A stretch of DNA of 59,229 bases from Chitinophaga pinensis. GTDB taxonomy: Bacteria > Bacteroidota > Bacteroidia > 2-12-FULL-35-15. The translations under genes and the position numbers were made by a program. This document shows, one piece after another, positions 10,318 through 14,379 of this stretch. Positions within the stretch are counted from its first letter, which is position 1; each line of letters opens with the position of its first letter. The DNA lies in assembly GCA_945885475.1 (NCBI GenBank), contig CAMCYR010000016.1, positions 1 through 59,229 on the forward strand. Direction: 5' to 3'. The notes under the pieces are model-generated. The model had not been told where the DNA came from, did not search any database, and saw only the letters and a program-made list of their open reading frames with translations.

Positions 10318-10929
10318 GTAAAGAAAAATCTAAAAAATAAAATAAATTCAGCGAAATTATTTTATTTTTTATTGCCTGTATTTATTTTGAGTAGTTGCAC
10401 AAATTTCAAAAGACTGATCACTGATGAAGTGGTAATGAAAGATGGAGATTCACAAACAGGGACTATTATCCGGTCTGATTCGACAAATATCAGACTAAAA
10501 AAGATAGACGAGTCCATCACTAATATTCATTAGTCGGGTCTTGAAATCGTACAGGGAAAAAAATTTAAGACTCTTTTTCTGGGTGCAAACTTCGGATTTT
10601 ACAAAATACCCTATTTCTCGGTATTCAGAAACGAACCGATAACGGCGAGGCACTCAGGTACGCAGTATAAAATTGGGATTGCCGCTCGTGGAATAAAACT
10701 TTATTACCTCAATCTATAGTACTCCCCTGCTAAACCATATGCCATTACAAAATTCGGATTCGGCTATCAACTCTATTTAGGAAATTCAACTTATCTAAAG
10801 AAAAATTCTTATTTTATCGGGACAGAATTCAATCTGATGGTTGTTAAATATAACAATGGGGCCCAAATCGCAATTGAACCATTTACCGGTTTTGAAAAAA
10901 AGTGCAATGAGCTGAAATACGTTTTTTAA
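10318..10929 (+). pseudogene. lipoprotein/barrel-like protein gene interrupted by two in-frame TAG codons
   Basis: Reading frame from 10318 runs to TAA at 10927-10929 with only two interruptions, TAG at 10531 and TAG at 10717. The translation looks like real protein throughout: a lipoprotein-type signal (LLPVFILSSCTNFKR), then VVMKDGDSQTGTIIRSDSTN, KKFKTLFLGANFGFYKIPYF, and a barrel-like C-terminus (GFGYQLYLGNSTYLKKNSYF, GAQIAIEPFTGF). No ATG is present at the expected start, so the start may also be lost. I infer a recently inactivated secreted or outer-membrane protein of unknown function. Because no frameshift exists and both stops are amber, readthrough is a formal but less likely alternative. 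It fills the stretch between the proline dehydrogenase and the MbnP-like gene. Confidence 0.7.
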
Positions 10930-11008: not shown

Positions 11009-11016
11009 TAAGTTTG
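11009..11016 (+). promoter_or_regulatory. -7 box of the MbnP-MbnH-like operon
   Basis: TAAGTTTG lies 18 bases before the ATG at 11035 and after the end of the upstream pseudogene, so the pair has its own promoter. Confidence 0.5.
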
Positions 11017-11034: not shown

Positions 11035-11793
11035 ATGCTCAGTACGATCAAAAACAATATCAACTCCTGCTCTCTTTCTCCATCTGGAAGAATAAAAACA
11101 ATAAGCCATGGACTTGCCTATTGCCTACTCTTCATTATAAGTATTGAAGTGATGGCTGCACAATCAAACAAAATACTAAACATCAACTTTCATGCATATT
11201 ACGGTGATGTACTACTGAAACTTGATGATTCCGTATATAAAACAGAAAACGAAACCGCAATTCAAATTGAGACATTTAAATGTTACATTTCAGGAATTGA
11301 ATTATTGAATAAAGAGCAGGTTGTTTTTCGCGAAAACAATAGTTTTCATTTACTGGATGTATCAGAATTAAAATCATTGTCGATTCCAGTGACCACTCCG
11401 TCAACCATTCAATACGATAAAATAAAATTCAATATTGGAATAGACAGCCTGACGAATGTTTCAGGTGCTTATGGTGGCGATCTGGACCCAACAAAAGGAA
11501 TGTACTGGACCTGGCAAAACGGATATATTAATTTCAAATTGGAAGGAAAAAGTATGATCTGTCCAACAAAAAACAATGAATTTCAATTTCATATTGGAGG
11601 TTATCAATTCCCCGACAGAACGATGCAGCAGGTAATCTTAAACATACTAATGGAAGGTTCATTGGCAATCCGTATTGACCTAAAAAAAATAATTGACAGC
11701 ATTGATCTTACCAAACAAAATCAAGTTATGTCACCGGGGAAAGATGCAGTAATTTTGTCAGAGAAAGCACTAAAAATTTTCAGCAGCTATTAA
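11035..11793 (+). CDS. MbnP-like secreted (copper-binding) protein
   Basis: A 252-residue exported protein with a long n-region signal peptide cut near residue 42 (VMAAQ). The mature part begins LNINFHAYYGD and holds the family segment GMYWTWQNGYINFKLEG at residues 155-171, with Trp158 and Trp160. In the characterised MbnP, the partner MbnH oxidises a Trp to kynurenine and the modified protein binds copper; whether the same Trp is used here is inferred. The gene is separated from the di-heme peroxidase-like gene by only 2 bases, which strongly supports the assignment. Function is likely in copper handling or redox biology of the periplasm. Confidence 0.8.
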   Translation: MLSTIKNNINSCSLSPSGRIKTISHGLAYCLLFIISIEVMAAQSNKILNINFHAYYGDVLLKLDDSVYKTENETAIQIETFKCYISGIELLNKEQVVFRENNSFHLLDVSELKSLSIPVTTPSTIQYDKIKFNIGIDSLTNVSGAYGGDLDPTKGMYWTWQNGYINFKLEGKSMICPTKNNEFQFHIGGYQFPDRTMQQVILNILMEGSLAIRIDLKKIIDSIDLTKQNQVMSPGKDAVILSEKALKIFSSY

Positions 11794-11795
11794 AA

Positions 11796-12830
11796 ATGAA
11801 AAAAGTTTTTATTTTATTACTGATTAGCACCTTTATCATTTTAGCATTTAAAAGCGGGAATGAATACACGTTTGCTATTCCTATAAACTGGCCAAAGCCT
11901 ACTTATGATTTTGCTAAAAATCCTTTAAGTATCGATAAGATCCAACTAGGCCGTGCTTTATTTTATGACCCACAGCTTTCCTCGGACAATACCACTTCCT
12001 GCTCCAGCTGCCATTCGCAATTTACGGCATTCACACATGTAGACCATGCATTGAGTCATGGTATAAAAGACCGCATTGGAAAAAGAAATTCTCTTGCCCT
12101 GATGAACTTAGCCTGGCATCAGTCGTTCATGTGGGATGGAGCGATTAACCACCTCGACATGCAATCACTGGCACCAATCAGCAATCCGGATGAAATGGAC
12201 GAAAAAATAGAACATGTAGTAACGAAATTGCAAAAATCAAAAATATATCCGCTTCTTTTTCAAAAAGCATTTGGCGATAGCACGATTACTGGGGAACACC
12301 TCTTAAAATCAATCTCACAATTTATGCTAACCCTTGTGAGCTCAAATTCTAAATACGACAGTGTGATGCGAAAGGAATCTGTTTTTACTGCGCAAGAAAA
12401 TCAGGGGTATAAATTATTCAAAACGAATTGTGCTGAATGCCACACAGAACCATTGTTTACAAACCTTAAATTTGAAAACAATGGCTTAACGTTAGACACA
12501 ACTCTTAACGATACAGGAAGAATGAAAATTACACACAATAAAAAAGATTCATTAAGATTTAAAGTACCTTCCCTCCGGAATATTGAATTTTCTTATCCTT
12601 ACATGCACGATGGCCGTTTTAAAAAACTGTCCGAAGTAGTAACACACTATACTTCCGGTGTTCAGAAAAGCAATACCCTTTCAAAAAAACTTGAAAAAAA
12701 CCTTGTACTGTCTTCGAATGAACGCGTTGATCTGATTGCATTTTTATTAACGCTTACTGATAGAACATTCCTGTTCAATAAGGACTATTCCTTTCCCAGA
12801 ACTATTTTTTTTACGGAAAAGAAAGAGTAA
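11796..12830 (+). CDS. di-heme cytochrome c peroxidase/MauG family protein, MbnH-like
   Basis: A 344-residue periplasmic protein with an N-terminal signal or anchor helix (MKKVFILLLISTFIILAF). Two CxxCH c-heme sites are visible: C69-S-S-C72-H73 and C212-A-E-C215-H216. Between them are the family segments QLGRALFYDPQLS, AWHQSFMWDG and a late PYMHDGRF, which supplies a distal ligand region. Members reduce peroxide or, as in MauG and MbnH, form a bis-Fe(IV) state that oxidises a Trp in a partner protein. The start lies 2 bases after the MbnP-like stop, so the two are made together and MbnH-type activity on the MbnP-like protein is the best inference. Confidence 0.87.
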   Translation: MKKVFILLLISTFIILAFKSGNEYTFAIPINWPKPTYDFAKNPLSIDKIQLGRALFYDPQLSSDNTTSCSSCHSQFTAFTHVDHALSHGIKDRIGKRNSLALMNLAWHQSFMWDGAINHLDMQSLAPISNPDEMDEKIEHVVTKLQKSKIYPLLFQKAFGDSTITGEHLLKSISQFMLTLVSSNSKYDSVMRKESVFTAQENQGYKLFKTNCAECHTEPLFTNLKFENNGLTLDTTLNDTGRMKITHNKKDSLRFKVPSLRNIEFSYPYMHDGRFKKLSEVVTHYTSGVQKSNTLSKKLEKNLVLSSNERVDLIAFLLTLTDRTFLFNKDYSFPRTIFFTEKKE

Positions 12831-13002: not shown

Positions 13003-14379
13003 ATGAACATGAAAAAAATAATAATCTCATCTATTTTGTTTTCGGGCTATTGCATAGGAATGGCGCAAACAAACCCAGCAATTACATCCTGGCTGCACAA
13101 TACAACAGGTATTTTAGGTAGTCACTATACTGTAGCAGGTGGGTCAACACCATTGAACGATGCAGACTCAGCTAATGTTCAAAAGGTCTACTATTCAACC
13201 ACCTTTGCTTATGTAAAAACAAAAGGAATACCTTCTTATCCTACCGGACCATATCTGGATGGAAATCCATCAATCGCTACTAATCAAAGTGCAATTTTTA
13301 AAATCCCTCTTACTCCGGTTCAAAATTTGGGAACACCAACAAACACAACAGGCGGAAATATCGGAGTATTTATTAACGGGATTGCATTTTTTGATTACAG
13401 AGACGGTGTATCCTGGAGAAACGCAAGCTCATCCTTATGTGGAGGTCCGATTATGCCCCCCTGCATGGGTGATGGTGTTTGGAACCGAGATGCCGTGGTG
13501 GGTGAACGAGGAGGTTTCGACTGCTCAAAAGGACATCCTGCGATGGGAAATTACCACACACATCAGAACCCTAGCGCATTCAATTTGGATCTTAATGTAA
13601 TTTCAACTGTCTGCAATTTATACGCGGCTGATGGCTTGTATGCAATCGACAGCACAGTTCATTCTCCACTAATTGGTTTTGCTTACGACGGCTTTCCAGT
13701 ATATGGTGCATATGGATTTAAAAATGCGGACGGTACAGGCGGAATAGTAAGAATAAAATCTAGCTACAGCAAACGAACAATTACTACTAGAACAACCTAT
13801 TCAACAGGAGCAACTGTTACAGCAGGACCTCCAGTAAGTGCTACTTATCCTTTGGGTTATTTCAGAGAAGATTACCAATACAACACAACATCCGCAGCAA
13901 CACCGGACTATTTAGATGAACACAACGGCAGATATTGCGTAACACCTGAATATCCATCAGGTAAATACTGCTATTTTGCAACTGTTGATGCAAACTGGAA
14001 TTCTGCATATCCGTATTTGGTCGGACCGACTTTTTATGGAACGAAAGTCGTGACAGATGTAGCGGCAATCACAGAATCTGTTACAGAATACATCCCGACT
14101 CCCTTAAGTGTTTTAAATTCTGATCCGGAAGAAATAAATGCAACGGTTTTCCCTAATCCGGCAAACGATATTGTTGCGGTCCAATTAAACGGTTTAAGAA
14201 GAGAGAATGTAACTATTGAAATGTATGATATTACAGGACGATTGATTCAAAAAACGACAGTGTATCAAGGAAGTACGATTGCTTATTTTGACACTCAAAA
14301 ATTATATAATGGTCAGTATATTATTAAAATCATTTCAGGAACTGCCGTTCTAAGTAAGAAGATCACCATCATAAAATAA
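13003..14379 (+). CDS. YHYH-domain secreted protein with T9SS type A sorting domain
   Basis: A 458-residue secreted protein; signal peptide ends near residue 21 (GMAQ-TNP). ATG 13003 is followed by a second ATG two codons on (13009), either of which may be used. The central part matches the YHYH domain: a Cys-rich segment (CGGPIMPPCMGDG), GNYHTHQNP at residues 182-190 and GFAYDGFPVYGAYG near 220. The signature here reads Y-H-T-H rather than Y-H-Y-H. The C-terminus, VFPNPANDIVAVQL...MYDITGRLIQKT...GQYIIKI, is a type A T9SS signal. The biochemical role of YHYH proteins is not established. It follows the MbnP-MbnH-like pair by 172 bases with its own terminator. Confidence 0.88.
   Translation: MNMKKIIISSILFSGYCIGMAQTNPAITSWLHNTTGILGSHYTVAGGSTPLNDADSANVQKVYYSTTFAYVKTKGIPSYPTGPYLDGNPSIATNQSAIFKIPLTPVQNLGTPTNTTGGNIGVFINGIAFFDYRDGVSWRNASSSLCGGPIMPPCMGDGVWNRDAVVGERGGFDCSKGHPAMGNYHTHQNPSAFNLDLNVISTVCNLYAADGLYAIDSTVHSPLIGFAYDGFPVYGAYGFKNADGTGGIVRIKSSYSKRTITTRTTYSTGATVTAGPPVSATYPLGYFREDYQYNTTSAATPDYLDEHNGRYCVTPEYPSGKYCYFATVDANWNSAYPYLVGPTFYGTKVVTDVAAITESVTEYIPTPLSVLNSDPEEINATVFPNPANDIVAVQLNGLRRENVTIEMYDITGRLIQKTTVYQGSTIAYFDTQKLYNGQYIIKIISGTAVLSKKITIIK

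Follow-up and report, generated by a model that had tools for sequence, protein, structure and literature searches.

The window, i.e., the whole 59,229-nt stretch of Chitinophaga pinensis DNA analysed here, carries three consecutive genes for an MbnP-family protein, a MbnH/MauG-like diheme enzyme and a YHYH-domain protein with a T9SS tail. Under the reading we favour, with a probability of roughly 0.7, MbnH would oxidise W158 of MbnP to kynurenine and a Cu(I) site would result; the YHYH protein would be a surface partner, and in relatives the set would be induced through an ECF sigma factor and a sensor. This account of W158 and the Cu(I) site is the best one because W158 and H186 are invariant across diverse Bacteroidota and M156, W158 and H186 line up with the solved MbnP structure 7l6g. 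For Trp oxidation and Cu(I) binding the best reading draws on studied homologues; copper as the specific metal is suggested by homology and neighbouring genes, and the YHYH role and metal sensing by gene linkage.

An MbnP-family protein and its diheme partner

The MbnP and MbnH ORFs are both intact, lie on the + strand and are separated by 2 bases (Table 1), as the sequence-only reading of the window had described. The first product matched Pfam PF20243 at 138.6 bits (E 2.9e-40, cut-off 27), a signal far beyond chance, and starts with a putative signal peptide ending in ..VMAAQ. Its only Trp residues are the two named in that reading, W158 and W160, both within GMYWTWQNGY. The supposed MbnP fold was present in an AlphaFold2 model (75 aligned sequences as input, mean pLDDT 88.8): the six best Foldseek matches in the PDB were the six chains of 7l6g (E 2.2e-9 to 3e-8), the best of them with a probability of 1.00 and a TM of ~0.6, and the next PDB match had an E of 0.2. 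Moreover, 7l6g could be found from sequence alone (E 5e-10) with a diverse 46-sequence profile, but not in PDB searches that started from the window MbnP, a 12-row alignment or a 75-row alignment.

The second gene was correctly taken for a MauG/MbnH-type enzyme: its product matched Pfam CCP_MauG (178.7 bits, E 1.4e-52), and its two CxxCH heme sites (residues 69-73 and 212-216) belong to a feature present in 230/230 MbnH homologues. The solved MbnH 6e1c aligned along its length (E 1.8e-35). In phmmer, residue 287 paired with residue 296 of the MauG chain, placing Tyr285 at MauG Tyr294, the axial ligand. This position is Tyr in 218 of the 230 homologues, Phe in 12 and Met in none, and the cytochrome c peroxidases aligned to the window MbnH have Met in the axial loop; thus MauG/MbnH chemistry is favoured over a simple peroxidase function.

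The NCBIfam models placed the pair differently. The window MbnP scored 37.7 bits against the TIGR04052 MbnP_like_WxW equivalog (cut-off 140), and the window MbnH 222 bits against TIGR04039 (cut-off 362.85) and 184 bits against the MauG model TIGR03791 (cut-off 443.85), all below threshold. Since only 3 of 396 Bacteroidota genomes held any protein above the TIGR04039 cut-off, the equivalog models describe a different branch; for this reason, and because both cut-offs were missed, the window proteins are filed as Pfam MbnP family and MbnH-like, rather than as members of the TIGR04052/TIGR04039 equivalogs. The four-Cys motif in the deposition name of 7l6g is also lacking, the only Cys of the window MbnP outside the signal peptide being C83 and C176. 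Of 75 close relatives (alignment A3), 60 share C176, which is missing in the other clade of the genus; close in sequence to the predicted copper-site His, it is a possible candidate for an extra ligand.

Table 1. Features of the window locus
Feature	Position	Strand	Basis
Upstream lipoprotein pseudogene, two in-frame TAG	10342..10926	+	stop-free homologues in 14 genus genomes
MbnP-like secreted protein, 252 aa	11035..11793	+	PF20243 match; predicted fold similar to 7l6g; motif aligned to 7l6g
WxW motif M156-Y157-W158-T159-W160-Q161; W158 predicted kynurenine precursor, M156 candidate Cu ligand	11500..11517	+	conservation
Candidate Cu(I) ligand H186, within FHIGGY	11590..11592	+	145/162; invariant in A6; pairs with the 7l6g His in VHVGST
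MbnH/MauG-like diheme enzyme of 344 aa; Tyr285 corresponds to the axial Tyr of MauG	11796..12830	+	CCP_MauG and PDB matches
Third operon gene, encoding a YHYH domain and a type A T9SS sorting tail	13003..14379	+	PF14240 178.2 bits; PF18962 53 bits

No methanobactin genes had been noted nearby, and in the whole 99%-complete genome no match to the MbnB family (PF05114) was found. Contig 4 of the same genome encodes a second MbnP-MbnH pair different from that of the window, with a lipoprotein-like MbnP (35.5 bits against TIGR04052, also under the cut-off of 140) and an adjoining TonB receptor. A pair outside methanobactin biosynthesis, as initially pointed out, is therefore real, but it is neither unusual nor new in kind, because Kenney & Rosenzweig (2013) stated that the MbnP-MbnH pair is conserved far past the methanobactin producers (PMC3621798) and because MbnP was found in 29/36 genomes of the window's genus and 97/396 sampled Bacteroidota genomes (about one quarter).

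Several other elements near the pair were considered and set aside. The envelope gene reported as broken upstream is indeed interrupted, but it fails as context for the system: it is of an unrelated family and its homologues lie on contigs other than those of MbnP. A Bacteroidota -7 promoter (TANNTTTG) at 11009-11016 is not claimed, the motif occurring 80 times in the window against 86 expected. A multicopper oxidase was rejected as a member of the window system, as the genome has no PF07732 match.

Conservation of the predicted copper site

In the 46-sequence profile, M156, W158, W160 and H186 of the window aligned with GMAWNW and VHVGST of 7l6g, among which are the residues that reportedly bind copper according to the 2021 MbnP paper. 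That PNAS study by Manesis et al. reportedly found that the kynurenine of MbnP is required for copper and is made from the first Trp, and the copper site is said to use one His and one Met. W158 and H186 were invariant in the diverse Bacteroidota alignment of 46 sequences (A6). Conservation of the Trp also bore out across genus and phylum: among 162 MbnP picked by Pfam profile from the genus plus 396 Bacteroidota genomes (49 of them from the window's own genus), W158 was found in 147, H186 in 145, M156 in 141 and W160 in 136. Conservation of WxW in the GTDB set was excluded as evidence, since the motif itself had served as the seed of the scan.

In the 160 distinct MbnP whose flanks were long enough, W158 was present in 143/148 with an adjacent MbnH vs 4/12 without one (Fisher p 6e-8, a figure that ignores phylogeny). 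A phylogeny-aware comparison of WxW loss with MbnH loss left ~2 well-supported independent events, nearly all in the expected direction, and did not reach significance; the covariation is therefore suggestive only. WxW was kept without an adjacent MbnH at L070, L077, L082 and L166, and MbnH was kept after loss of the His at L064, L071 and L075. At L045-L048 and L141 the second Trp was replaced by Met or Leu and MbnH retained, as would fit oxidation of the first Trp.

Two sets of natural variants deserve description. i) In an MbnP shared by two genomes (L043:4100-5011 and L044:5117-6028), WxW has become MxM (GMYMGMGAGY), the His is Gln and no MbnH is adjacent, i.e., a naturally Trp-less MbnP; ii) the MbnP at L064:4948-5736, L071:4831-5595 and L075:4913-5680 carry WMW beside an adjacent MbnH and have Ala for the conserved His (YAIIG), so that the copper site may be altered with the Trp retained.

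The YHYH partner and probable regulators of related loci

A YHYH-domain gene with a T9SS sorting domain follows the pair, as had been noticed, and the YHYH protein is a conserved operon partner within one MbnP clade. In the genus, MbnP was adjacent at 20/24 full-length YHYH loci, and of the other four one comes from a fragmented assembly, where it is on a separate contig. In the set of the 80 closest GTDB relatives, MbnH followed MbnP in 78/78 testable loci, and YHYH adjoined MbnP in 59/70; upstream there was a Metal_resist/Spy-like periplasmic protein in 37/76, and an ECF sigma factor was found in 34/74. In a 240-row MbnP tree, one clade of 118 (support 93) contained 84/85 YHYH-linked loci and all 52 sensor-linked loci; linkage to YHYH was 84/95 testable loci inside this clade vs 1/24 outside. 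Gene order is MbnP-MbnH-YHYH in the window group and YHYH-MbnP-MbnH in the other group. The full operon, with ECF factor and sensor, is present in the cultured relatives Flavobacterium swingsii (L261) and F. psychrotolerans (L232). YHYH also occurs without MbnP in many genomes, and the YHYH domain matched no solved fold, only the T9SS tail matching known structures. A connection between YHYH and MbnP was absent from the literature searched; the 2021 MbnP paper, which reportedly includes a neighbourhood analysis, lies outside that literature, and priority is uncertain.

One representative of the sensor family matched Pfam Metal_resist (35.9 vs a cut-off of 29.2), and the family matched Spy weakly. 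Its His68, His121 and Cys129 are nearly invariant, which would suit metal sensing. Every one of the 13 strong matches to the sensor in the genus was close to an MbnP. No sensor homologue was found in the whole window genome or in its sister genome G031; thus the window has retained the three effector genes but not this regulator. The sister locus (L034) has the identical three-gene form, and the near relatives L195, L196, L199 and L200 likewise keep all three genes and have no sensor. Relative to the sister locus, dN/dS was ~0.12 for MbnH and ~0.10 for YHYH (MbnP being saturated), indicating purifying selection on these two genes.

The observations of the sequence-only reading are confirmed and its interpretation is partly supported; it missed YHYH as a conserved partner, the ECF/sensor genes of related loci and the second pair.

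Other genes recur around MbnP. A T9SS multicopper oxidase was present at 14 MbnP loci (L226:2885-4612 and 13 others), near or downstream of MbnP-MbnH and sometimes together with an AhpC/TSA protein; some loci have an AhpC/TSA or a CotH protein. At some 50 phylum MbnP loci besides L133:6213-6590, all outside the window-like set, there is a small secreted Cys protein (~125 aa, CNGxC) with no accepted Pfam family, and a ~319-aa CDACGC protein recurs at 47 MbnP loci. At G021:C265 and G021:C388, a weaker relative of the sensor lies within ~5 kb of short-form YHYH proteins with no MbnP, a hint at a link between sensor and YHYH that does not involve MbnP.

Proposed mechanism and alternatives

In the mechanism we propose, MbnP, MbnH and the YHYH protein would all be exported, and MbnH, with two c-type hemes and probably H2O2, would convert W158, the first Trp of WxW, to kynurenine. 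Once modified, MbnP would bind one Cu(I) through H186 and probably M156, with the kynurenine nearby. At the cell surface the T9SS-exported YHYH protein would cooperate with MbnP, its most likely role being that of a partner that binds or accepts metal. Furthermore, a periplasmic metal sensor of the Spy/CnrX-like type, acting through an ECF sigma factor, probably induces the set in about half of the close relatives that could be tested; the window genome lacks such a sensor but retains the three effectors. More tentatively, and in our view with the odds somewhat against it, MbnP, MbnH and YHYH may act together in Bacteroidota as a surface copper system of three components: the T9SS-exported YHYH protein would either take copper from kynurenine-bearing MbnP or be modified together with it, and a dedicated ECF/sensor switch would control the set in many relatives.

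The diheme protein could instead be a bacterial cytochrome c peroxidase of ordinary peroxide defence, with MbnP as a partner whose Trp stays unmodified. Its best pairwise PDB matches are in fact cytochrome c peroxidases (1iqc, E 1.4e-39), and AhpC/TSA genes occur in some of the operons; nevertheless we consider this unlikely, given the axial Tyr in place of Met in nearly all homologues, the near-obligate pairing with MbnP and the invariance of the Trp and His in the latter. Less probable still is that the pair does act on Trp and yields, in the manner of MauG, a TTQ-like or other redox cofactor rather than a copper site. MauG forms TTQ from two Trp, the diheme protein does match TIGR03791 (184 bits), and most MbnP have both WxW Trp conserved. 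However, the second Trp is Met or Leu at the loci named above that have MbnH, so a cross-link of two Trp cannot be general, and the specific match is to MbnP, in which copper binding reportedly depends on the kynurenine.

Decay of the locus, with a lost regulator and a pseudogene upstream, would explain why the sensor homologue is absent from the whole genome and why 10342-10926 is interrupted. We regard it as similarly improbable: the three ORFs are intact, MbnH and YHYH are under strong purifying selection, the sister L034 has the same three-gene form, L195, L196, L199 and L200 are sensor-less yet keep the three genes, and the pseudogene comes from an unrelated family.

Comparison with known systems and implications

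The reading of the pair as a Trp-oxidising copper module has its closest counterpart in MbnP-MbnH of Methylosinus trichosporium OB3b (7l6g, 6e1c; TIGR04052/TIGR04039), with which it shares the predicted fold, WxW, the aligned His and Met, and a MauG-type diheme partner encoded alongside. Unlike that system, the window has neither methanobactin genes nor the four-Cys set and falls far under both equivalog cut-offs; YHYH and T9SS are added here, and an ECF factor plus a metal-sensor regulator in many relatives. CorA-CorB of Methylomicrobium album and MopE-SACCP of Methylococcus capsulatus likewise combine a surface or secreted protein with an adjacent diheme peroxidase-like gene, and CorA and MopE are Cu(I) proteins with a kynurenine derived from Trp (PMC3912023, PMC3621798). 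The CorA site consists of Kyn62-x-His64 plus His114 (PMC3912023), whereas the window has no Kyn-x-His motif but W-x-W and a distant His.

MauG of TTQ biosynthesis likewise carries two hemes and an axial Tyr and oxidises Trp residues in a second protein; the window enzyme, in contrast, has no apparent TTQ substrate beside it and misses the TIGR03791 cut-off. The upstream genes of relatives, i.e., an ECF sigma factor, a small membrane protein and a Metal_resist/Spy-like periplasmic protein, recall regulation of the CnrYXH, Spy and CpxP type, but there they precede MbnP-MbnH-YHYH rather than efflux pumps, and they are missing from the window genome.

To our knowledge, kynurenine copper chemistry has been studied in methanotrophs only. 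The present locus links to it YHYH, so far a family without a known function, and common T9SS export; if the three-component system is true, it would give the unstudied YHYH family its first function. Moreover the natural variants, i.e., loss of WxW together with MbnH and the presence of two pairs in one genome, offer a way to test the Trp-to-kynurenine model in bacteria that do not produce methanobactin.
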